Origin: Porphyromonadaceae bacterium
GTDB lineage: Bacteria; Bacteroidota; Bacteroidia; Bacteroidales; Porphyromonadaceae
Reading direction: 5' to 3'
Assembly (NCBI GenBank): GCA_030528555.1
Contig: JAUMYQ010000011.1
Location: 1 to 55,375 of the forward strand
Length of the DNA stretch: 55,375 nt
Below the pieces are notes generated by a model. That model did not search any database, was not told where the DNA came from, and saw nothing but the letters and a program-made list of their open reading frames with translations. Below, piece by piece: positions 1-55,375 of this stretch (within the stretch, counting starts at the first letter, position 1; every line of letters starts with the position of its first letter). Made by a program: the position numbers and the translations under genes.

Positions 1-80
1 AACTTTTTGGAAAAAGTTCGGGAACTCCGAGAAAAAAGATCGGGAACATTTTTTCAAGTATTCCCGAGCATTTTTTAGAG
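1..80 (+). repeat. A-tract modular repeat element, truncated copy at contig start
   Basis: The contig opens in the middle of a repeat also seen near 9.9 kb, 39.2 kb and at the far end. The first 18 bases form a near-perfect dyad (AACTTTTT, GG, AAAAAGTT). They are followed by units carrying the core CGGGAA or CCCGA, separated by runs of five to six A or T that start at about 11, 32, 49 and 71, a spacing of 17 to 22 bases. The last unit differs from the other copies, so this right end is diverged or belongs to a variant. The same 18 bases end the window. Confidence 0.8.
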
Positions 81-4188: not shown

Positions 4189-7100
4189 TTACTTCACAAC
4201 CAGACGGTAGATACTCTCACCAAGACGCACAAGATAAACACCTCGGGGCAGCTCACCCACCGGAATGCGCTGTGTGCGTTCGCTGATCTTCTCCTCTCGC
4301 AGCAGTACGCCCTCTAGCGAATAGATACCCACACGTGCGCCTATCTCTGCGCCCTCTACGATGATGTAGGTCGTGGCAGGGTTAGGATAGAGATGTGGTG
4401 CCTGGGCTTCGGCTGTCTCCAGAGCTGTCTTTTGGCGAATCTGGACTTCGATCGAGGGCGAGCCAGCGACCGTGAAGCGGTAGGGTCGGGTGAGGGCGCG
4501 CCCATCGATACGCACTGCCTCCACCTCATAGCCAGCATCGGGTGTCACCTCCAGCTCTAGCTCCGTGCCATGGGAGACTGCCGAGAGGTCGGGATTTCCC
4601 TTGATAGCAAGGCGTGCATTGGGGACGCTGGGCAGCGTAACGCTATACGTCCGCTTGCGGAACGTGGCGCGCACCTCGGTATTAGCCGTCACCACAAAGC
4701 GACCGCTTGCCGTGATGTCCTCACCGCCTGCTGTGAGGCTTAGCAGTTCGTAGCCCTCGGCAGCTGTCGCCTCCACACGAAGCTCCGTGCCGTGAGGCAC
4801 AGCCGAGAGGTTCGCAAATCCTATGATACGCACCGAGCCACCAGTGACAGGCGTAAGGCTTACGCTGTAGGTCTTCTTGCGGAACGTGGCGCGCACCTCG
4901 GTATTTGCCGTTACCACAAAGCGACCGCTCGCCTTGATGTCCTCACCGCCTGCTGTGAGGCTTACCAGCTCGTAGCCCTCGGCAGGGATGGCTACCACCG
5001 TGAGGCTTGTACCCTCCAGCACACGAGCCAGATCGCTTGCCCCCGAGATCGTGAGGCTACCGCCCTCACTGCTTGAGGATGTCACGGCATAGTAGTTTAT
5101 CTTACGACTAAAGGCAAGGCTGAGGGAGATGTCCTGCTCCATCGTGAAGGTACAGCTCCAGGTGTCGTAGATACTGTTGTAGCCCATACCATAAGTGTGG
5201 GGGCTAGCAGCGAAGCTCAGCTGTGGCTCTTCGTAGCGGTTGCTGTCGTACACCGGTAGGATGCACACTTCCTTACCCCTCGCCACTTGTGTGGGCAGGG
5301 GCTTCTCTACACCGTCCTCAAAGTAGCGGTAGCTCACGCCCTCCACGTTGCTCTGCACCGCTAGGGCATAGAAGGCCTTACAGCCACCGCCAGGGGTCGT
5401 GGGGATAAGCTCATAGTTGCCATGTACTGCTCTCCAGCCCTTAGCCTGTAAAAGCGTGATGTCCGACTTCTCAAAGGCAGGATCTGTCTTGGGCCACACA
5501 TATATCACCTTATCAAATTGATCTCTAGGCGCATCTGTGTGCGTAGGGAGCGAGCGGTAGAAGTCATCCAGATCGCAAGGGGTTACATCTAACCTATATA
5601 GGTTGAACTCCACACTGCTGAGGCTCGTCATCTGAGAGAGGTCAGGCAGATTGAGGCGATATCGCGACCCTGGTATGTAGGGCTGGCTACCTGGGCGAAT
5701 ATACAAACTAGCACAAAGCTCGGGGCGTGTGGGATGAAATGCCTTATAAGGGGCTAGGAACTTTGCCCGATAGCCAAAGTTTGCCTCCTTCAAAGTCTCC
5801 GCTCCATGCTCTTTAGCCCACCTCTTAGCGTAGAGGTAGCGCACTCTAGGGTTATTCTCTGCGTAGGCGAAGCGTGGTACGACCTCCCAAAGTGTGGCCG
5901 CAAAGACCTGATCGTAGTCACAGTAGGCATAGCGTCCACCGCCTAGGTCGATCACCGTATATTTATTTCTAATAGATGTTCGTGTTTCGAACGTATGCGC
6001 CTCGATCTTACCTCGCTCCCCAAGATAGTCGATAGCGTATAGCTCCTCATACTGCTCGGCGTCGAAGTCCGCCACCGTGGCCGTGAAGGTCATATCCTGC
6101 GAGAGGGTGTAGCGCTTCCACTGCTTGTAGGCATCATCGTAGTGATTGACCTTGAGGCTAGTTACAATCTTGCCCACCTCTGGCACAACGTAGGCGTACA
6201 GCTCCGTACCCACTGGCAGGCGCTCGCCACTCCGCACCTCACGCTCACCAGCACGCACATAGATCTTGTAGCCCTCGCACTCGGGGATGGTAATGAGCTT
6301 GTCGCCCTCCGTCCCCTCGATGGGGTACAGCTCGCGCAGGTCCTTCATCTCGGGGTACTTCCTGTCCTCAGCCCTGTACACCTCCAAAAGCCCAGCAGGC
6401 ACATAGAGCCGCTTTACCCGATTGACGTAACGCTCCAGCAGCATAGGCTCAGGAGAATGGCAGACAAGCTCCTCGATCCTCATACCTTTTGACATCAAGA
6501 GATAATACCAAGGATAGTTGAACTCGTCGTTCCTACCAGACCCCTCAAAGCCTTGGATATGCCGCCCAAGGACGAGCCTCCGCAGCGCAGGCTTCCCACT
6601 GGCAGAATGCCCATAGATACCTAGCGTGCCAGCCCTCAAGATCGGTGCTTTGGCAAGGTACTCCAGCTCCTCGAGCTGCGAGCAGAGGAGGAACATACCC
6701 GTCCCCACACGCTCCACGCTCTCGGGAATGGTTGCCCTGCGCAGCTTCGAGCCAGCAAAGGCAAAGGCTCCGATGCTCTGCAATGCGCTCGGCAGGCTCA
6801 TCTCCTCAATATTGGTATCGGCAAAGGCAGCCCTACCGATGCGCTTAAGCGTAGCGGGGAGTTGCACGCCCGTCACAGCTTTATTACCCTCAAAGACGTG
6901 TGCGCCCAGCACCTCTACGCCCTCGGGGACAACGATCTGACCGCTTGCCTCAGTCCACACCCAAATCCCCTTGGCGTTGCGTACGCTCTTGAGCTTGGGG
7001 CAGCCGTCAAAGGGGTAGCCCAGCGTGCGCTCGAGCAGAGGGAAGTCCACCTCCTCGAGTGCCGTACAGCCCTCAAAGGCTAGCCCCTTGAGCTCACGCA

Positions 7101-9285
7101 CCCCACGACCAATGACCTTAGTAATCTTGCTACAGTCCTTAAAGGCTGCGGACTCGATAATCGTCACCTCGTCAGGGAGGATTACCACCCCCTCCGTAGT
7201 CTTTGGCTCATAGAGCATGACCTCATTACTTAGTACGCGCTGCAACTTCGGCACTTCGGAGAGTTCACACCAGTGGGTATCTATACGTGTCACATTCTTG
7301 TCATACTCCCCCCCAGAGGCTACAGCGTTAAAATCGGCATTCTCCCAGCTATTGCGGAGCGGATGCTCAGAGTAGCCTTTGAGTTTGGGGAAGTAGAGAC
7401 GTTCGAGGTTCGGCATCCTGCCTAGATGATACTCAATATACTCTACATTTTCGCCCGAGATGCTCGTAACCTGATCGTTCTTAGGAATAGCCCATCTGGC
7501 GATGACCTTAACCTCTGGGGGGAGGACTACATCGCCCGAAGCGGTATTCCACGAGATGAGTGTATCGCCACGCACGATCATCCCTGACAGCTCTCGCTCA
7601 TCGACATCCACGGCACGCCAGTTTTTCTGCTTTAGGACCGCAAGGTCGGAGGCAAAGGCATCGTTGTCCTCACTGGGTGAGGCATCGACCTTGCCCAGCA
7701 CATAGAGCTTGCCCTCGCTCTTCGTGCTGCGGTCGGTGAGGTTCTTATATAGGGCATTCATCCCCACGCTGCGCAGCCTATTGCCCTGAATACTGGCGGT
7801 CGTGAGGTTGGGCGGAGCTGCAGCGAGCTGCACATCCTCCAACTTATTGCTCGAGCAGTCGAAGCTCTCAAGCATTGCGGTGGGGAGGACGAGGTGGGTG
7901 ATTTGGTTATTGCTCAAATCCAACTTCCGAAGCCCTCGGTAAGCCCCAAGGTCTACACGCCCCTTGAGGGCGCAATAGCTAGCCGTCAGTTCCTTAACCC
8001 CCGTCAGCTGCGACCAAGGTAAATCGGAGAGATCCGAAAGCCTACGTATAAACAATTCCGTAAGCTGCGCCCGTGGCGAGAGCTTGAGTGCTTCTAGCTG
8101 CTGTATACCCAACAAGTGTAGAACGCTCAGACTATGAAGCTCCGAGAGATCAAGCACCCTCGAGGTCGCTACCTGACCGCTGAATGCCTCGATCTGTATT
8201 GTTTTAAGCTGCGTTGCCACCGAGAGATCGGGCATCGGAATACCCTCACTTAAGGATAGACCTAGGTAATTCAACTGAGGAAGAAGACGCTCAACACTTA
8301 GTCGCTTCACAATGATACGCCTGGCATCTAGGTAATCGACAGAACCTACATAAAACTTAATCGTAGGGTTATCTATGGGTAGGCGGTGAAAGGCCAAGGC
8401 ATTCCTTGGCATCCCCCACAATGTAGAGTTTATACCACTCAATTGGCTACTCATCTCTTCGCCCAAGGGTTGATAGATCAGCTCGCCATCGCCTAGGTCT
8501 ATGGCCACGAACTGCCCTACTTGTGTCGAGCCAAACCTTGGCAGCTCTAGCTCTATTCCTAATGTACCTCGAGGTGCCTTGACCTCACAGCTGAGGTAGG
8601 GCGAGCTGGTGGTGGGGAGGTCGCTTGCTAGGTAGTGCTGCCGCCCGACATTCGCCCCCACAAACTGCTCTTTAGTTGCCTCATCGGGGAGGATGAAGCG
8701 CTCCCCATGAGCAAATGCGCTCGGGTCAGCCTCGGAGAGCCCAGCACGACTGAGGTCAAGCATCTTGACCGACTTTTTGAAGAGGTTCGCCCCCACCTGC
8801 TCCACCACGGGAAGCGCAAGGTAGCTCAAGCCACCTCGCCGCCCCATACCAGCGTTCCACTGCATCGCCTCATCGCCCACACGCCGACATTTAGGTAGGC
8901 GTACCACGGTGAGCGTAAAGAATGCATCGGGTTCGCTCGGCCCTGCATCCTTAAAGGCTCGTGCGCCTAGCTCCTCCACCTCTGGGGCATCGAAGCCCGT
9001 AAGGGCAGACATCTCGGCACAGGCCTCTGCCCCGATGAGCCGCACCCTATTGAAGTCGATGTGACTTACCTCCTCGTTGCCCTTGAGTGCGCCTGGGGCT
9101 AGCTCCGTCACGCCATCGGGTATGCGTATGCGCCCAGAGGCATCCGCCCAACTGGTGAGCCTATGCCCCTCTACGACCTGCGCCCTAAGCGCACCGACAC
9201 TACCAAGGACGATGAGGGCAAGGGTTAGTGCGCCTAGCCATCGCCTGCCTCTCCTTGAGCTTAGGCTAAGTAGTTTTTGTTTCAT
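4189..9285 (-). CDS. Secreted leucine-rich (BspA-like) surface protein with type IX sorting domain
   Basis: The 1698-residue protein starts with a signal peptide (residues about 1-36, ending LRAQ). Most of residues 40-1000 is leucine-rich repeat of the BspA/LRR_5 type, with recurring phrases such as LPATLKRIGRAAFADTNIEE. Residues about 1394-1617 hold three 74-76-residue modules with GYEL...FRKKTYSV ends, resembling divergent InlB B-repeats. The last 68 residues, starting HLYPNP and ending YLVRLGESIYRLVVK, match a T9SS type A sorting domain. It should therefore be exported by Sec, then moved to the cell surface by the type IX system. BspA-like proteins often bind host proteins or other bacteria, but the ligand here is unknown. 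Flanking hairpins suggest it is transcribed alone. Confidence 0.9.
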   Translation of the reverse strand: MKQKLLSLSSRRGRRWLGALTLALIVLGSVGALRAQVVEGHRLTSWADASGRIRIPDGVTELAPGALKGNEEVSHIDFNRVRLIGAEACAEMSALTGFDAPEVEELGARAFKDAGPSEPDAFFTLTVVRLPKCRRVGDEAMQWNAGMGRRGGLSYLALPVVEQVGANLFKKSVKMLDLSRAGLSEADPSAFAHGERFILPDEATKEQFVGANVGRQHYLASDLPTTSSPYLSCEVKAPRGTLGIELELPRFGSTQVGQFVAIDLGDGELIYQPLGEEMSSQLSGINSTLWGMPRNALAFHRLPIDNPTIKFYVGSVDYLDARRIIVKRLSVERLLPQLNYLGLSLSEGIPMPDLSVATQLKTIQIEAFSGQVATSRVLDLSELHSLSVLHLLGIQQLEALKLSPRAQLTELFIRRLSDLSDLPWSQLTGVKELTASYCALKGRVDLGAYRGLRKLDLSNNQITHLVLPTAMLESFDCSSNKLEDVQLAAAPPNLTTASIQGNRLRSVGMNALYKNLTDRSTKSEGKLYVLGKVDASPSEDNDAFASDLAVLKQKNWRAVDVDERELSGMIVRGDTLISWNTASGDVVLPPEVKVIARWAIPKNDQVTSISGENVEYIEYHLGRMPNLERLYFPKLKGYSEHPLRNSWENADFNAVASGGEYDKNVTRIDTHWCELSEVPKLQRVLSNEVMLYEPKTTEGVVILPDEVTIIESAAFKDCSKITKVIGRGVRELKGLAFEGCTALEEVDFPLLERTLGYPFDGCPKLKSVRNAKGIWVWTEASGQIVVPEGVEVLGAHVFEGNKAVTGVQLPATLKRIGRAAFADTNIEEMSLPSALQSIGAFAFAGSKLRRATIPESVERVGTGMFLLCSQLEELEYLAKAPILRAGTLGIYGHSASGKPALRRLVLGRHIQGFEGSGRNDEFNYPWYYLLMSKGMRIEELVCHSPEPMLLERYVNRVKRLYVPAGLLEVYRAEDRKYPEMKDLRELYPIEGTEGDKLITIPECEGYKIYVRAGEREVRSGERLPVGTELYAYVVPEVGKIVTSLKVNHYDDAYKQWKRYTLSQDMTFTATVADFDAEQYEELYAIDYLGERGKIEAHTFETRTSIRNKYTVIDLGGGRYAYCDYDQVFAATLWEVVPRFAYAENNPRVRYLYAKRWAKEHGAETLKEANFGYRAKFLAPYKAFHPTRPELCASLYIRPGSQPYIPGSRYRLNLPDLSQMTSLSSVEFNLYRLDVTPCDLDDFYRSLPTHTDAPRDQFDKVIYVWPKTDPAFEKSDITLLQAKGWRAVHGNYELIPTTPGGGCKAFYALAVQSNVEGVSYRYFEDGVEKPLPTQVARGKEVCILPVYDSNRYEEPQLSFAASPHTYGMGYNSIYDTWSCTFTMEQDISLSLAFSRKINYYAVTSSSSEGGSLTISGASDLARVLEGTSLTVVAIPAEGYELVSLTAGGEDIKASGRFVVTANTEVRATFRKKTYSVSLTPVTGGSVRIIGFANLSAVPHGTELRVEATAAEGYELLSLTAGGEDITASGRFVVTANTEVRATFRKRTYSVTLPSVPNARLAIKGNPDLSAVSHGTELELEVTPDAGYEVEAVRIDGRALTRPYRFTVAGSPSIEVQIRQKTALETAEAQAPHLYPNPATTYIIVEGAEIGARVGIYSLEGVLLREEKISERTQRIPVGELPRGVYLVRLGESIYRLVVK
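4435..5106 (-). repeat. Three tandem 74-codon modules in the surface protein gene
   Basis: Modules occupy about 4879-5106, 4657-4878 and 4435-4656. The first two are near-identical in DNA over roughly 110 bases at their 3-prime ends (222-base period), including the codons for AGGEDI, ASGRFVVTANTEVRATFRK. The third module is clearly diverged. This indicates a recent internal duplication or gene conversion of the first two. Confidence 0.85.
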
Positions 9286-9864: not shown

Positions 9865-9960
9865 GCACAAAAATCGGCTGCCGAAGAGCGCAAAAAATCT
9901 TCGGGAACTCCGAGAAAAAAGATCGGGAAGTTTTTGCGAAAAGATGGGGGGTGTCTCTAA
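9865..9960 (+). repeat. A-tract modular repeat element, short internal copy
   Basis: Runs of four to six A begin at 9869, 9892, 9915 and 9939, a 23, 23, 24-base period. Between them are CGGGAA cores (TCTTCGGGAACT and GATCGGGAAG). The right edge, TGGGGGGTGTCTCTAA, is shared with the copy near 39.1 kb, which has two more internal units. The common ends and variable middle show a modular element gaining or losing units. Confidence 0.8.
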
Positions 9961-36918: not shown

Positions 36919-37755
36919 CTAGACTAGCTCAATATTTACTCCTGAGAACATCAAAAGAGCAAAGATTATGGCCACAGCGATGCGGTAATATCCAAAAAAC
37001 CTAAAGCCATATTTGGTCACAAAACCGATAAAGAGCTTAATGGCTGCCAAGGCAACAAAGAAGGCCACAACGTTGCCTACTAGGAGGGTCTGCCAATTGT
37101 CTGTAAAGACCTCTACACCACTAACCTTATATAGCTTATATGCCTTGAGCAGCGTTGCCCCAAACATCGTAGGTATGGCAAGGAAGAAAGAAAACTCTGC
37201 CGCCTGAGCCCGAGTGAGCCCCTGCTGCATTCCACCCAAAATAGTCGCCATAGAGCGCGACACTCCAGGTACCATAGCTAGACATTGAAATACTCCAATG
37301 ACAAGTGCCTTTCTTGGTGTAACTGTCTGCGGATATTCTGTGCCAAGACGTCTATCCATATAGATCATGACCAGCCCTCCGATAAAGAGCATCACGACCA
37401 CGACCCACACACTACCTAGGAGCATATCTATATAATCCTCAAGCAATACGCCCAAGATACCCGCCGGGATACAGCCGATGAGCATAAGATAGTAGAGGTT
37501 AAGCCCCTGAAGCCCATAGCTAGGTCTCTCAACTTTGCCCCAAGGTAAGAAGCGACGAAAATAAAGTGCCAATACAGAGAGGATGGCCCCAAACTGGATC
37601 ATTACCGTGAAGGCACGGAGGTACTCCGTATTTTTCATCCCCATAAGCCCCTCAACGAGGATCATATGACCTGTCGAAGAGACGGGCAAAAACTCCGTCA
37701 GTCCCTCAACGATGGCTATAATAATGCTTTCGATTATCGTCATACCTCTTGTCAT
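36919..37755 (-). CDS. uppP: Undecaprenyl-diphosphatase
   Basis: UppP (BacA) recycles undecaprenyl diphosphate for cell wall and O-antigen synthesis. The 278-residue protein has about eight membrane segments and both catalytic motifs: EGLTEFLPVSSTGH (about 17-30) and PGVSRSMATI. The start at 37755 shares its A with the upstream TAA (TAATG coupling); an ATG four codons later (MTIIES) is an alternative that gives the commonest N-terminus. Confidence 0.96.
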   Translation of the reverse strand: MTRGMTIIESIIIAIVEGLTEFLPVSSTGHMILVEGLMGMKNTEYLRAFTVMIQFGAILSVLALYFRRFLPWGKVERPSYGLQGLNLYYLMLIGCIPAGILGVLLEDYIDMLLGSVWVVVVMLFIGGLVMIYMDRRLGTEYPQTVTPRKALVIGVFQCLAMVPGVSRSMATILGGMQQGLTRAQAAEFSFFLAIPTMFGATLLKAYKLYKVSGVEVFTDNWQTLLVGNVVAFFVALAAIKLFIGFVTKYGFRFFGYYRIAVAIIFALLMFSGVNIELV

Positions 37756-37979
37756 TAATCTTCTTGTCCTGCGTCAGGCTTGATCAGTATAGCTACGATC
37801 ATAAGGAGAAATCCCGCAAGGCATACCGCTGGAGCAATGACTATTCTTCGGGTAGAAAAGATCTCTGGATTAAAAACATTAGGATCTTCGCTCCCCCCTC
37901 CAGACATCAATACGAAGCCAATGACAATGATAGCGATAGATAGCCCGATGAGTATATAATTTTTCCTTCCGTATGTCAT
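37755..37979 (-). CDS. DUF3098 small membrane protein
   Basis: This 74-residue protein has two membrane segments (about residues 8-25 and 48-68) and the central phrase IFSTRRIVIAPAVCLAGF typical of DUF3098. It always, as far as I recall, sits between ftsX and uppP in Bacteroidales. The open frame extends upstream into the ftsX gene, but the ATG at 37979 fits the family. Function is unknown; the context suggests the cell envelope or division. Confidence 0.9.
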   Translation of the reverse strand: MTYGRKNYILIGLSIAIIVIGFVLMSGGGSEDPNVFNPEIFSTRRIVIAPAVCLAGFLLMIVAILIKPDAGQED

Positions 37980-38002
37980 AATATCATATCTATAGTAATA
38001 GG

Positions 38003-38893
38003 TTAGTCCAAGTGTATTAGGCCCGAGCGCATGCGAATATATCTCTGAGTAGAGATGAAGGCGGAGAGGGCAGTACTTGCTACAGCTACAGCAAGCAGTG
38101 CACACGCCCCTATAAGCAGATACCGAGGGCTAAGAACCGACAGCACAGGTAAACCCCAAAGTCGCCCAAGGGCGAAAACAATGCCAGTGAGCGCAAATAT
38201 CGCAAATAGAGTAGAGAGTACGCCATCCAACACCGCTCTCCCTACAAAAGGACGACGAACAAACCAAGCACGCGCACCCACAAGTGTCAAAATACGGATA
38301 TTGAGCCTATCGGCATAGATGAACATGCGTATCGTGTTGGCCATCTGTATGTAGGTAAGTAATGCCAGCACAGCAAGGATACCCCACGAAAGCCATTCTA
38401 AAACACGCGTATTACGAGCCAAGGTCTCAAGAAGATCAGCCTTGTAGTTCAGCACAATTTCCAAACCCTTGGTTCGAAGTGCAGCTTCCAATCGATGCAA
38501 GCTATCCCGATGTACATAGGGGGCAGAGATATGTAACTCATAAACTGCGTCAAATGGATTCTCTCCGAGTGGGGCAAGCATCTCAGAAACACTCTGTCCG
38601 ATACTCTCAGCTATTTCCGCTGCCGCCTCATCTTTACTTATATAGCGTACAGAGGACACCTCGGGCCTCTCCTTCAATAGCTTACCAAGACTCTGTTCCT
38701 GACCAGCAGTATACGTCCGAGGGACAACAACAGTGACACAAAACTGCTCATTCACCTTCGTCTTCAACCCATAGGTGCCAATACGTAGCAGACCGATAAG
38801 CCCCAAAACAAAGAGACTTATTGTTAGTCCAATGAGGCTAATGAGGCGCATCTGATTGACAGAGCTAGCTTTCCTTCTCCTATGATGTGACAT
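38003..38893 (-). CDS. ftsX: Cell division protein FtsX
   Basis: FtsX is the membrane subunit of the FtsEX complex, which controls peptidoglycan hydrolases at the septum. The 296-residue protein has one membrane segment at about 17-38, an extracytoplasmic domain and three C-terminal segments. Family features are VRYISKDEAAAEIAESIG and ANTIRMFIYADRLNIRILTLVGA. ftsE is not adjacent. It heads the run ftsX-DUF3098-uppP-truB-queA-folK-rimM-dxr and has a good promoter about 100 bases upstream. Confidence 0.94.
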   Translation of the reverse strand: MSHHRRRKASSVNQMRLISLIGLTISLFVLGLIGLLRIGTYGLKTKVNEQFCVTVVVPRTYTAGQEQSLGKLLKERPEVSSVRYISKDEAAAEIAESIGQSVSEMLAPLGENPFDAVYELHISAPYVHRDSLHRLEAALRTKGLEIVLNYKADLLETLARNTRVLEWLSWGILAVLALLTYIQMANTIRMFIYADRLNIRILTLVGARAWFVRRPFVGRAVLDGVLSTLFAIFALTGIVFALGRLWGLPVLSVLSPRYLLIGACALLAVAVASTALSAFISTQRYIRMRSGLIHLD

Positions 38894-38991
38894 AATCCCC
38901 CGATTGTATACGGTTCAGTTCTATCAAAAATGATATCATCTCTCCCTACCCCATGTGCACATCACGATGTAAGGCATATGATAGTGCGTTG

Positions 38992-39023
38992 CAAAGTTAC
39001 AAAATAATGTGTCCCTCCCCAAG
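38992..39023 (-). promoter_or_regulatory. Promoter of the ftsX run
   Basis: On the minus strand, TAACTTTG (38992-38999) matches the -7 consensus and CTTG (39020-39023) lies 20 bases upstream as a -33-like box. The leader would be about 90 bases. Confidence 0.6.
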
Positions 39024-39115
39024 ACAACATAGGGCAGCCAAATCTAAGATCCAGAGATCTGGCACTTCCCTCTCGCTCTATATCGGAGAACAGATAATCT
39101 ATTTATTCTGAAACT

Positions 39116-39231
39116 TTTAGAGACACACCCCATTTTTGCACAAAAACTTCCCGAACTTTTTTCTCGGAGTTCCCGATCTTTTTCCAAAAAGTTCGGGAAG
39201 TTTTTTTTGAAAGTTCCCGAAGATTTTTTCA
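39116..39231 (-). repeat. A-tract modular repeat element, longest internal copy
   Basis: T runs on the plus strand begin at 39133, 39157, 39179, 39201 and 39224, spacings of 24, 22, 22 and 23 bases. Units alternate CGGGAA and CCCGAA cores. Read on the minus strand, it starts AAAAAATCTTCGGGAACT, as does the copy at 9.9 kb and the one at the contig end. It finishes ATGGGGTGTGTCTCTAA like the 9.9-kb copy. It carries a complete set of units and serves as the reference for the truncated copies. Confidence 0.85.
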
Positions 39232-39499
39232 CTTCATCTGGAATCAAACTAACAATCTCAAAAACAATAAATTATAAAAACACAAACAAAATGGAGACAG
39301 ATCGACCTAAAGCTACCCCAAATTTTGATACAATCCCTCTAAAGTGGCAGAACGACATATGAGAGAAATCTGTACATCTGTCGGTGCTAAAGCTCTCGAA
39401 AAGCAAACTGCTTGACAGCGAGGCTAAGGCTGAGCCTATTGCACTTAATCAAAACTATCGAACTATTACTTTAAGTTCACATATTATAATTACTTAACT

Positions 39500-41873
39500 A
39501 TGACAAGAAAGATCCTTGTTCTCGGTCTGTCTGTACTCCCCACCCTAGCATTAGGCATGGAGCATGCGCCCGACAGCGTCCATCATCTCAGCCAGGTAGA
39601 AGTACTAGGCAAGCACATCAAGAAGCCTGCGAAGAAGAGCCTCGGACTATCTCGCACCGATGTGTCACTAGATAAGCTGCCTATGACGATCAACACCATC
39701 GACATGAAAGACCTCGCCATGCGTGGCTTGTATCAACCCATGGAGGCTCTACGCTTCTCCTCGGGAACAGGCATCCGACAAACGTATGGTGCATTCCTGC
39801 AGCTAAGCATACGTGGCTTCGACTATGCCCCCGTGGTAGTGGATGGTATGAGAGACGAACGCACCACATTTAATTCTTATCCTCTCTCGGACCTAAGTGA
39901 TGTAGAGAGCATCGAGATCCTCAAGGGGCCAGCCTCTGTGCTACAAGGACACTCTGCCGTGGGTGGTACGATGAATATCACACGTCGCAAGGCCATCCAA
40001 CAAACCAATATCTCCGCCTATCTATCCTACGGTAGCTTCGACAGCAAGCGTGCTATGGTATCGGCAGGAGGCTATCTGGGTCAGGGTTGGAGCATCCTCT
40101 CGGGAGTTGCCTACGCTGGGGGTGAAGGCTGGCGCAGCAGAGGAGACCGCAACTTCAAGGCCTACACTACAGCGAGCAAAGTCTGGAACAACAATACTCT
40201 AGACCTGCGCTTGAGTTACCACAATGACTTCTACGGCACGGAGGCTGGACTACCAGCAGTCTTTACCACACCCATATACGACAGCAGGACCAATGAAGAG
40301 TATCTCAAACCTGGACAGCTACAGCCAAAAATCCGCCGAGATGCTCGCTACAACAACGAGAGCGATGAGATGTATCATCGTAGTCTCTACTTTACGGCTA
40401 ACTGGACAAGCCAGCTCACCGACTGGCTCAAGCTACGCGAACAGTTTTCCCTCTCGCACGATGACATTGACTACTTCAGCACGGAAGAGCTGAGCTACCT
40501 GACCTCCACCAAACTCAATGCCGATGGTAGTGCACCCTACGCTCACTATTATATGAGCAAAGACAAAGATGGCAAGGAAGTAAAGACATTCGTAGACTTA
40601 AGTCGCGTACAGCTAACTTCCCCTCTACGATTCCGTCACATGGCCAAAACAGCTCAGAATCAGCTCAGCCTCGAGGCCAAGTTCCAGACCTACGGTTTCG
40701 CGCACAACCTCAATGCTGGCTATGCCCTGAGCTTTATGGACCGTGTGTCCTTTACAGGCTATCAGTTTGGACCTAAAGCCGATACTCAGGATGTAACAGG
40801 AGCAGGGCTCAACTCCATCATCTCTGCCTACGACCCCATAAGTGCAGGACCGATGCAATCACGCTTCAGCAAGGCCAACCCCATGAAAGTACTCAGCCAC
40901 GGCTTCTTCGTTCAAGATGTGGTGGAGTTTAGCCCCATGCTACAAGCCATGCTCGCCATGCGCTACGACCTCTACAGCTATACAACGTGGCATGCGTGTA
41001 GACAGCAACGATGGCGGCATTCGCTACACAGAGCCCGAGAAGTTTGACACTGCCCTCTCACAGGCTTTGACCTATCGCCTAGGACTAGTCTTTACCCCCG
41101 TGACAGACCTCAATATCTATGCCTCGGTGGCTAACTTCTTCAAACCCTACACCTCGACCTATAGCCCGACCACTATTTACATCAACAAGGCTGGTCAAGA
41201 GTTTAGCCCCATCGCAAACAGAGAGATCTACGACCCACTCAAAGGCTACCAACTGGAGCTCGGAGCGCGCGTGCAGCTGCTCTCGTGGCTTGACCTAACG
41301 ACCTCTGGTTTCTACATCAGCCAGTACAACATCATCAAGTCTCTTGGTGTAAAGGAGGAAGAGGTCAACGGTGCGAAGGTTAAGAAGAACATCAGTGGCC
41401 AGGTCGGCACAGCCAGCTCCTACGGCTGGGAGATAGACCTACGTATGAACCCTATCGAGGGGCTGGATCTAGCCGCTGGGTATAGCTATACCAAGGCTCG
41501 CCTCGGTGAGGTTGCCAGCAACCCCTACCTCAAGAGTGAGGAGCTATCGGGCAAGCAGCTCTCCTATATTGCTCCCCATAAGTTCTACACCTTCGGTTCA
41601 TACCGCGATGTCCGTGGCAAGGCTCTTGGCGTAGAGGGGCACTATAGCCTCAGCTATACGGGCGAGCGGTTCCGCAATCAGAGCAATACTCTCTCCTACG
41701 AAAGCTATACTCAGCTCGACCTCGGGGCTTCGCTTGAGCTGGTGCAGAACCTTCGTCTAGGCTTCGATGTCTACAACGTACTCAATGTCGAGAGCTTTCA
41801 AGAGTCATTGGGCCATCAAATGATGCCAAACGCCCCACGTACCTTCAAGGTTAGCCTAAGCTACAAGCTCTAA
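39500..41873 (+). pseudogene. TonB-dependent siderophore receptor, frameshifted
   Basis: Two frames make one receptor of about 790 residues. The first part (39500 to about 40985) has a signal peptide, a possible TonB box (HHLSQVEVLGK) and the plug domain with SIRGFDYAPVVVDGMRDER and EILKGPASVLQGHSAVGGTMNITRRK, shown here in pieces, then barrel strands. The reading then must move forward one base between 40979 and 40992 to continue as GMRVDSNDGGIRYTEPEKF through to the C-terminal strand ending FKVSLSYKL at 41873. There is no slippery run at the site. It could be a true inactivating mutation or a sequencing or assembly error. Such receptors import ferric siderophores or heme-like compounds across the outer membrane. 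Confidence 0.88.
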
Positions 41874-41985: not shown

Positions 41986-43068
41986 CTATCTTGCCCCCAA
42001 TAACAACCTATTGAGTAGACTACTGCGCTGAATAACCCAGATGAAGAATAGTGAAACAATGACAATGATGATGGTCTCCATGAGAGCAATAGGGTAGCTC
42101 AACCCAGAAAGTTCTTGGGTAACCGAAAGTAAGAGAGGATGTAAGTATTCTGAAATAACATAAATGCCCATCGTATGCTTTCCTAACAACAGTAGTACTG
42201 GCCTAAGAGGTCTCAAATATGGTTCTAACTCAGATAAAGCTAAAATAACAACGGCACAACCAACAAATCCTATCAGACAACGAAACAAATCTATATATAG
42301 CTGAGACAATATTGCCCCTTTCAGAAGAGAGTAACCTGACGTATATATATAGATGTCCCTATCATAAAAGGAAAGCATCACGACGAATGTACAACCTAGT
42401 ACGAGAAGGTAAAGTCGCCTAATACTAGAGAGAGAGAGAGAGACAGAGAGAGAGAGAGAGTTCAGCTTCTCCGTCAGATCATGCTTCTGAAACAAATATC
42501 CTGCAACGAAAAACGGATACATGAAACTATAAGCTCCTATATAAAATCGGTCCGGCAAGAAAAAGCTCATACAGAATATCCCCAGGTAAACCCACAGACT
42601 ATCCTTACAATATCTATTAACCAAAAGCACAATGGCCGAACAATAAAACACAGCCCACAAGAACCAAAGGTTATGAATAATGTTTGAAAAGACACGCCGA
42701 GCAATCCATAAGACCGTCACTGGCTCTTGGCTAGGTATAAATTCGTTTTGAATAACATATACCATTGGAACAATAGTCCAAACAACTATCGGAACTATCA
42801 AGGTGGTAACCTTCTTAAGAAGATTATCTTTCAAGCTCCTCCTAATGACCGAGGACGAAAACAAATAGCCACTAGTAAGCATAAACAAGGGCATATGAAA
42901 GCTATAAATAGTCTTAAATACCACATTGTCAAAATATGCTCCTGATTGAAAGTATGCGTCTCCTGAGCCAAACTCGATAGCATGCCCCAGGACAACGAAG
43001 ACAATCAAAAATGCTTTGATGATATCAATCAACCAATTCCTTTGTCTATCAAGCATCATAGTCATCAT
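41986..43068 (-). CDS. Acyltransferase-3 family membrane protein with a phase-variation tract
   Basis: This 360-residue protein has about ten membrane segments and the family motif VVLGHAIEF with the likely catalytic His29, then SFHMPLFMLTSGYLF. Acyltransferase-3 proteins O-acetylate or otherwise acylate polysaccharides, peptidoglycan or lipids. Residues 203-214 (NSLSLSVSLSLS) in a cytoplasmic or periplasmic loop are encoded by a (CT)8-GT-(CT)8 tract. A change of one CT unit would shift the frame, so the gene is probably switched by slippage; the present copy is in frame. It ends a run with a glycosyltransferase and an LpxL-type acyltransferase, which points to surface glycolipid modification. 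Confidence 0.88.
   Translation of the reverse strand: MMTMMLDRQRNWLIDIIKAFLIVFVVLGHAIEFGSGDAYFQSGAYFDNVVFKTIYSFHMPLFMLTSGYLFSSSVIRRSLKDNLLKKVTTLIVPIVVWTIVPMVYVIQNEFIPSQEPVTVLWIARRVFSNIIHNLWFLWAVFYCSAIVLLVNRYCKDSLWVYLGIFCMSFFLPDRFYIGAYSFMYPFFVAGYLFQKHDLTEKLNSLSLSVSLSLSSIRRLYLLVLGCTFVVMLSFYDRDIYIYTSGYSLLKGAILSQLYIDLFRCLIGFVGCAVVILALSELEPYLRPLRPVLLLLGKHTMGIYVISEYLHPLLLSVTQELSGLSYPIALMETIIIVIVSLFFIWVIQRSSLLNRLLLGAR
42427..42460 (-). repeat. Dinucleotide simple sequence repeat in the acyltransferase gene
   Basis: On the plus strand the tract is (AG)8, AC, (AG)8, 34 bases in all. On the coding strand it is (CT)8-GT-(CT)8 and encodes alternating Ser and Leu. It is by far the longest simple repeat inside a coding region of the window. 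Confidence 0.95.
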
Positions 43069-55170: not shown

Positions 55171-55320
55171 CGAAAAAGAGGGCTATGTACCTTAGACTCT
55201 AGTAACTCACCCTAAGTGGCAGCGTCAACTCTGGTCTCATCCTTTCAAATGATCTATCATCTGAAACGACAAATCATATTAAACTCATTACTAAACAATT
55301 ACAAGACCCCTTGATCCGTT

Positions 55321-55375
55321 CAAAAAATCTTCGGGAACTTTCAAAAAAAACTTCCCGAACTTTTTGGAAAAAGTT
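55321..55375 (+). repeat. A-tract modular repeat element, truncated copy at contig end
   Basis: AAAAAATCTTCGGGAACT starts this copy exactly as in the 9.9 and 39.2-kb copies. A runs start at 55322, 55343 and 55368. It stops at the dyad AACTTTTTGGAAAAAGTT, which is also the first 18 bases of the window. The contig therefore ends inside repeat copies at both ends. Confidence 0.85.

Follow-up and report, generated by a model that had tools for sequence, protein, structure and literature searches.

Intergenic arrays of two-turn DNA units in a Porphyromonas genome: mostly fixed architecture, even spacing and a period common to many congeners

The 55,375-nucleotide stretch analyzed here (the window) is contig JAUMYQ010000011.1 of assembly GCA_030528555.1, from a Porphyromonadaceae bacterium, and represents the whole of contig C21 of the draft genome hereafter called G000 (1,777,083 bases, 42 contigs, 85.6% complete). 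It carries copies of a short element made up of A-tract units that follow each other about every 22 bases. A sequence-only reading of the window had described a modular repeat of this kind. The repeat is real and far more extensive than described: Tandem Repeats Finder (TRF) gives a period of 22, and the left edge of the element is found 195 times in G000. The copies of the window, which belong to two types (A and B) defined below, are the following:

1..76, + strand: right part of a type-A copy, with two + cores and then GTATTCCCGAGCATTTTTT; cut by the contig end.
9892..9982, + strand: shortened type-B copy, with the fixed left edge, two cores (a full copy has four), and the right edge GATGGGGGGTGTCTCTAA.
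39095..39274, - strand: full type-B copy, with an outer arm (TAAT..TTA..), the fixed left edge, and a TGGGG right edge.
55277..55375, + strand: left part of a copy, with the outer arm region, the fixed left edge, and units one and two; truncated at the contig end.

In the 9.9-kb copy, the right outer arm ends in ATTA and the left outer arm is not recognizable. The 39.2-kb copy, whose outer limits were set from consensus positions, contains four cores in +-++ order and a right outer arm also ending in ATTA. For the copy at 55277, the outer-arm limit is consensus position -47. The window has 10 occurrences of the core RWTCGGGAA for 1.3 expected, seven within the copies and three alone, and TRF delimits period-22 arrays at 39143-39230 and 55322-55363. 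Rfam returned two tRNAs and no other match in the window, and positions 37500-41000 had no match in a plasmid collection.

The copies had been said to share fixed edges and to differ in their number of units. The left edge, AAAATCTTCGGGAACT, is indeed common to the copies at 9.9 kb, at 39.2 kb, and at the right contig end, and further copies are abundant, with 195 matches (100 + 95) at up to two mismatches in the whole of G000 and three (0 + 3) for the reversed control. The proposed right edge did not stand: TGGGGTGTGTCTCTAA has only eight matches in G000 under the same tolerance (control, one), the copy at the left contig end finishes in GTATTCCCGAGCATTTTTT, of the other type, and the one at the right contig end is cut before its right edge. 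Overall, 105 elements were placed in G000.

The anatomy of the element was established on 772 kb of G000 containing 92 exact left edges and 112 motif clusters. The element usually runs as AAAAAATCTTCGGGAACTTTC, AAAAAAAACTTCCCGAWCTTTTT, two spacer bases, AAAAAGWTCGGGAACTCCGAG, and AAAAAAGWTCGGGAAC, followed by either of two right ends, ...TTTTTTCGAGTATTCCCGAGCATTTTTT in type A and ...TTTTGNGCAAAAATGGGGTAT in type B. As 10 of the 92 left edges are cut by an end, 82 rows were typed: 39 of type A, 22 of type B, 6 of palindromic copies (in which both edges can count, so that one copy may give two rows), and 15 others. A length of 109 is found in 31 of the 39 type-A rows and a length of 100 in 19 of the 22 type-B rows. 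Hence, the size of the element is mostly fixed, the number of units seldom varies, and the 9.9-kb copy with its two cores is a shortened exception rather than an example of the main variation. On the left side, conservation reaches about -47 (TAAT..CT..AG..TTA..TCC.GATT). On the right side, type B continues with TAA..ATTA at distances matching those of the left arm, so that the outer arms look like weak inverted copies; this likeness, read by eye from two logos, is a spaced pattern in inverted order too weak to be called a terminal inverted repeat. Within the element, the units have mixed orientations and vary independently, with CC as the spacer in 37 of 89 rows and GG in 36. Another array of G000, observed in C12, C20, or C21, is unrelated and has palindromic-looking GGGTGC..GCACCC units about 22-23 bases apart.

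The element is a non-coding, dispersed, intergenic module. Only one of the 112 clusters, a lone motif in locus L137, lies in a long open reading frame (ORF) according to a simple ORF caller; 29 others overlap ORFs of 80-126 amino acids, taken as spurious. The flanking genes of the 64 classifiable clusters are oriented ++ (20), -- (18), -+ (18), or +- (8), a mix that resembles, by eye, that of long gaps in general. Many contig ends of the draft assembly coincide with arrays (18 of 84 fall inside an element or no more than about 330 bases from one). An association with genes for secreted proteins was considered and rejected (30 of 179 adjacent genes vs. 35 of 237 other genes, P 0.59).

The elements of G000 are kept apart from one another. 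The 105 elements define 82 within-contig spacings with a mean of 13.0 kb, that is about one element per 13 kb, a minimum of 4.58 kb, and a coefficient of variation (CV) of 0.51. Three spacings are below 5 kb for 24.0 expected (minimum 11 in 5000 simulations) and none is below 4 kb. In contigs C12, C20, and C21, analyzed in full, none of 29 spacings is below 5 kb for 9.0 expected. Elsewhere, positions come from pattern lists that may be incomplete, which should blur evenness and not create it. With positions drawn from the actual intergenic gaps of ≥100, ≥150, and ≥250 bp, the P values for the CV were <0.0002, 0.0004, and 0.0016; with the strictest draw, the count below 5 kb taken alone is weaker (6.3 expected, minimum 0). 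The same behavior was found in a second species, G020, a single contig of 2.19 Mb carrying a 21-base family, TTCCTCCGAAGTTTCATTTGA. The set used for spacing holds 100 of its 119 matches (60 of 60 forward, 40 of 59 reverse) and is taken as complete on both strands up to 1.348 Mb. In this part, 70 loci have a CV of 0.55 vs. 0.98 in simulations, none of 20,000 simulations being as low, and two spacings are below 6 kb for 18.5 expected. An apparent strand asymmetry beyond 1.35 Mb was discarded as an artifact of this set. Evenness is thus shown in two species, G000 and G020, and not genus-wide.

At the level of sequence, AAAATCTTCGGGAACT has 0-7 matches in each of 24 congeners, and so has its reversed control; a 3.5-kb query from G000 matched only scattered pieces of congeners, and a 20-mer scan of named genomes, from which records near G000 may be missing, gave five stray matches in other bacterial groups. 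A diverged version was recognized by eye in seven of eight stretches of G016, with tandem units such as AAAATCTCTCGGAACTTTTTCC and, in some copies, different end units like AAAAATCTTCAGGAACT; among these stretches, one (L161) is a coding match and two contain runs of N. A generic search for A4-N10-T4-N4 revealed 22-base arrays of other sequences in several congeners; its reversed control matched in other congeners, so this control is not a null.

The period was sought in the intergenic DNA of 23 Porphyromonas genomes (20-405 kb per genome), scanned at lags 8-60 with an identity of 0.62 or more over 60 bases. Sixty of the 69 arrays found have a lag of 21-23 or 42-46, three a lag of 14 due to seven-base repeats, and six lie elsewhere. 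These 60 two-turn arrays come from G000 (20, nearly all of its element family), from G022 (18), and from 14 other genomes (22), so that at least one is present in 16 of the 23 genomes, with differing cores. One lag-21 array of G020 consists of a seven-base repeat. When all scanned DNA was Markov-shuffled, ten rounds yielded five arrays with scattered lags. In outgroup tiles of the order (10, of which 9 with intergenic DNA, 19.5 kb in all), no two-turn array was found, and one array had a lag of 10; the 22 arrays per 68 kb of the congener tiles would have predicted about six two-turn arrays in this DNA. The real finding is a period common to many congeners whose letters are not common, with copies kept apart in two species. 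Modules spelled differently yet following a nearly identical rhythm of 21-23 bases point to a common chromosome-level role or way of spreading. A literature search, with subscription papers outside its scope, retrieved no title reporting the G000 family or a genus-wide two-turn rule.

Other observations concern these congeners. Intergenic seven-base repeats of the TTAGAGG/TCTAACC type occur in G020, G002, G013, and G017 (L176, L194, L244, L195), sometimes beside 21-base arrays. In G022 (complete, 2.92 Mb), several unrelated units have, by eye, a common 22-base period, and 19 of 19 loci of three-unit AAAAYRY..TTTTARYT arrays lie within 2.75-0-1.38 Mb. The empty 1.37-Mb arc has a simulated P of 0.00015, tested after it had been seen, and looser matches do occur there. 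A noisy GC skew from 20 tiles suggests an origin near 0.3-0.6 Mb and a terminus near 1.9 Mb, and this three-unit family may thus favor the origin half.

The layout had been compared with that of the BrickBuilt elements of P. gingivalis, and the comparison stands for the layout and fails for the sequence. BrickBuilt is described with 19 copies, up to 22.8 units, and an IS5-like terminal repeat (PMC4596501), a source that also refers to earlier reports of repeats of 22, 23, and 41 bases in strain W83. As reported there, BrickBuilt copies are intergenic, as is the G000 element, have 23-base, that is about two-turn, tandem units framed by leader and tail segments, are polymorphic between strains, and are associated with assembly gaps (PMC4596501). 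In contrast, the G000 element has another unit sequence, more than 100 copies, and mostly 4-5 cores. At up to three mismatches, the BrickBuilt 23-mer AGAYCATARTATCCTCTCRTRTG is found 0 times in G000, 218 times in G041, 29 times in G010, and in none of the other 23 of 26 genomes, so G041 is presumably P. gingivalis and G010 P. gulae, by which the genus is fixed. Within -350..+450 of the 92 left edges, the IS5-like repeat GAGACCTTYGCA gave no exact match, one at up to one mismatch, and eight at up to two, for 0, 0.4%, and 9.6% in random 800-base windows of the same DNA, hence no enrichment beside the elements. BrickBuilt is an analog of the G000 element.

We propose that the working part of the element would be four or five double-stranded DNA sites set in a row, with about 22 bp, i.e., two helical turns, from one to the next. 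A protein, possibly dimeric, could then occupy the row repeatedly along a single face of the helix. The row would be framed by distinct end units and by the weaker outer arms. Protein-loaded rows would act as chromosome-organizing nodes, either anchors, bridges, or insulators. Such a role would explain why neighbors are rarely less than about 5 kb apart and why the genus keeps the period and not the sequence. The protein, its same-face binding, and the architectural role are what we infer, and we give this chromosome-organizing array a probability of about 0.4. Several results weigh against it. No binding protein was found, and the sequences differ so strongly between species that one conserved protein would need fast co-evolution. 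Seven of the 23 genomes (G001, G003, G007, G009, G012, G019, and G023) have no two-turn array in their 20-40 kb tiles, G019 having some outside them. Dyad symmetry reaches P<0.05 in 14 of 62 array consensuses and is not a general property of the unit. The forward-only list of G020 has, over the whole chromosome, an ordinary CV of 0.98, with no spacing below 6 kb (7.8 expected), and the three-unit loci of G022 are clustered, not even (CV 2.01). Finally, even spacing is expected from transposition immunity too.

Indeed, the element may instead be a non-autonomous mobile element, similar to a miniature inverted-repeat transposable element. By analogy, the 22-bp units could be sites for a transposase acting in trans, and the bound array could keep new insertions several kilobases away. 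Distance-dependent exclusion of this kind is known as target immunity in Mu and Tn7, whose ends carry arrayed 22-bp transposase sites; site length is alike in the G000 element, and target immunity would give such spacing. The discrete copies, mostly of one size and with a fixed left edge that is abundant in G000 and at background in 24 congeners, would fit this explanation, as would the 4.58-kb minimum. So would differences in presence between two species, seen on comparing G020 (420-640 kb) with G017 (640-840 kb), with synteny blocks merged by hand. From alignments, the 543.6-kb array of G020 has no counterpart in G017 and the 827.4-kb array of G017 none in G020, the flanks being collinear in both cases; the 741.7-kb array of G017 is likewise missing from G020, as judged only by block coordinates. 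At one site common to both, the array is in opposite orientation. However, the junctions of these 21-bp family sites are not clean and show no clear target duplication. The target-site duplications sought around the G000 elements did not exceed chance either, the longest shared flank word averaging 4.35 in 26 rows taken as type B, whose ends are not exactly known, vs. 4.33 after shuffled pairing. No clean empty site could be defined: the array that precedes one gene in G020, G017, and G002 is absent in G013 and missing with the whole spacer in G018, and the G018 gap was read as a deletion because G020 and G017 share the flank. In contrast to Mu and Tn7 ends, no transposase was linked to the G000 element, and its units are in mixed orientation. 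A Y1 transposase search, which gave matches in control genomes, found none in G000 (85.6% complete) nor in 22 others of 26 genomes, and matches in three. The Mu-transpos_C search (0 of 26 genomes) was uninformative, 14 control genomes being equally silent. The repetitive extragenic palindromic (REP) elements, GC-rich hairpins tied to Y1 (RAYT) transposases, offer another comparison. Like the G000 element, bacterial interspersed mosaic elements (BIMEs) and REPs are described as numbering more than 100 copies, with units that follow a regular arrangement and alternate in orientation, and as carrying protein binding sites (PMC2817692). They differ by the Y1 transposase, not found in G000, and by their hairpins, whose counterparts in G000 do not covary at the variable pair. 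Mobility with exclusion remains a tentative explanation, over which we rank the protein-loaded array slightly; the data do not separate them.

In the same G020/G017 comparison, an array lies no more than 300 bp from 7 of the 18 non-collinear block edges for 0.74 expected (P 0.001), and no more than 700 and 1300 bp from 8 and 9 of them for 1.7 and 3.2 expected. Breakpoints near arrays are what would be seen if the arrays were a recombination substrate only, passive repeats that homologous recombination and gene conversion would spread and maintain and that would cause rearrangements. Since neither the evenness of the spacing nor the period common to unrelated sequences is predicted by such a process, we consider it unlikely as the whole explanation. 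Two segments of G020 bounded by arrays (C1:480206-491046 and 497261-504783; L255, L176) have no syntenic match in the G017 stretch. They hold large genes in rows, and several of these genes have starts that resemble signal peptides by eye, as though exchangeable cassettes for surface proteins were bounded by arrays; no such enrichment is seen in G000.

An RNA element, either a bidirectional terminator or an attenuator hairpin, is improbable. The 39.2-kb copy folds better than its shuffles (z -3.0) and its stems are framed by A and T runs. However, the variable pair at the center of the two units forming the central hairpin, where only A or T occurs, is paired in 36 and unpaired in 46 of the 82 rows (39 and 50 of 89 rows, Fisher P 0.20), in a test resting on one pair position; selection on a hairpin or RNA was therefore rejected for lack of covariation at this pair. 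In addition, convergent genes are not clearly preferred (8 of 64), and Rfam recognizes nothing but the tRNAs of the window. Known DNA uptake signals for natural transformation are short single motifs, not two-turn rows. A role of this kind is still less probable at one element per 13 kb, even if the uptake sequences of Haemophilus and Neisseria are likewise abundant, species-specific, and reported as evenly spaced, significantly so by Karlin et al. (PMC1939737).

DNA curvature, predicted from the spacing of the A-tracts, was rejected as the main property. In a wedge model, the end-to-end to contour ratio is 0.901 for elements and 0.945 for shuffles, a slight difference, vs. 0.32 for a phased A-tract control, and the bend angles do not differ (36.5 vs. 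37.1 degrees). A periodic AT signal beyond the element appeared in position averages, not in single-flank autocorrelation, and is not claimed.

Some neighboring features of the window can be mentioned. A frame resembling, by eye, a TonB-dependent receptor (39500-41047, + strand) adjoins the 39.2-kb element. A gene at 4189-9285 (- strand) encodes a 1698-residue protein with, by eye, a signal-like start and leucine-rich-like repeats, and holds a 137-base direct repeat (4640-4776 and 4862-4998). An AG dinucleotide run of 17 copies at 42427-42460 is a possible phase-variable tract.

Extended to the whole genus, the chromosome-organizing reading becomes doubtful: geometry and not sequence would be conserved, as intergenic rows of sites at 21-23 bp that recur almost regularly every 10-20 kb, and each lineage would have exchanged the sequence of the sites, presumably along with the protein that binds them. 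Either the chromosome architecture of the genus would use phased site arrays that sequence searches miss, or transposition with exclusion would have shaped whole chromosomes.
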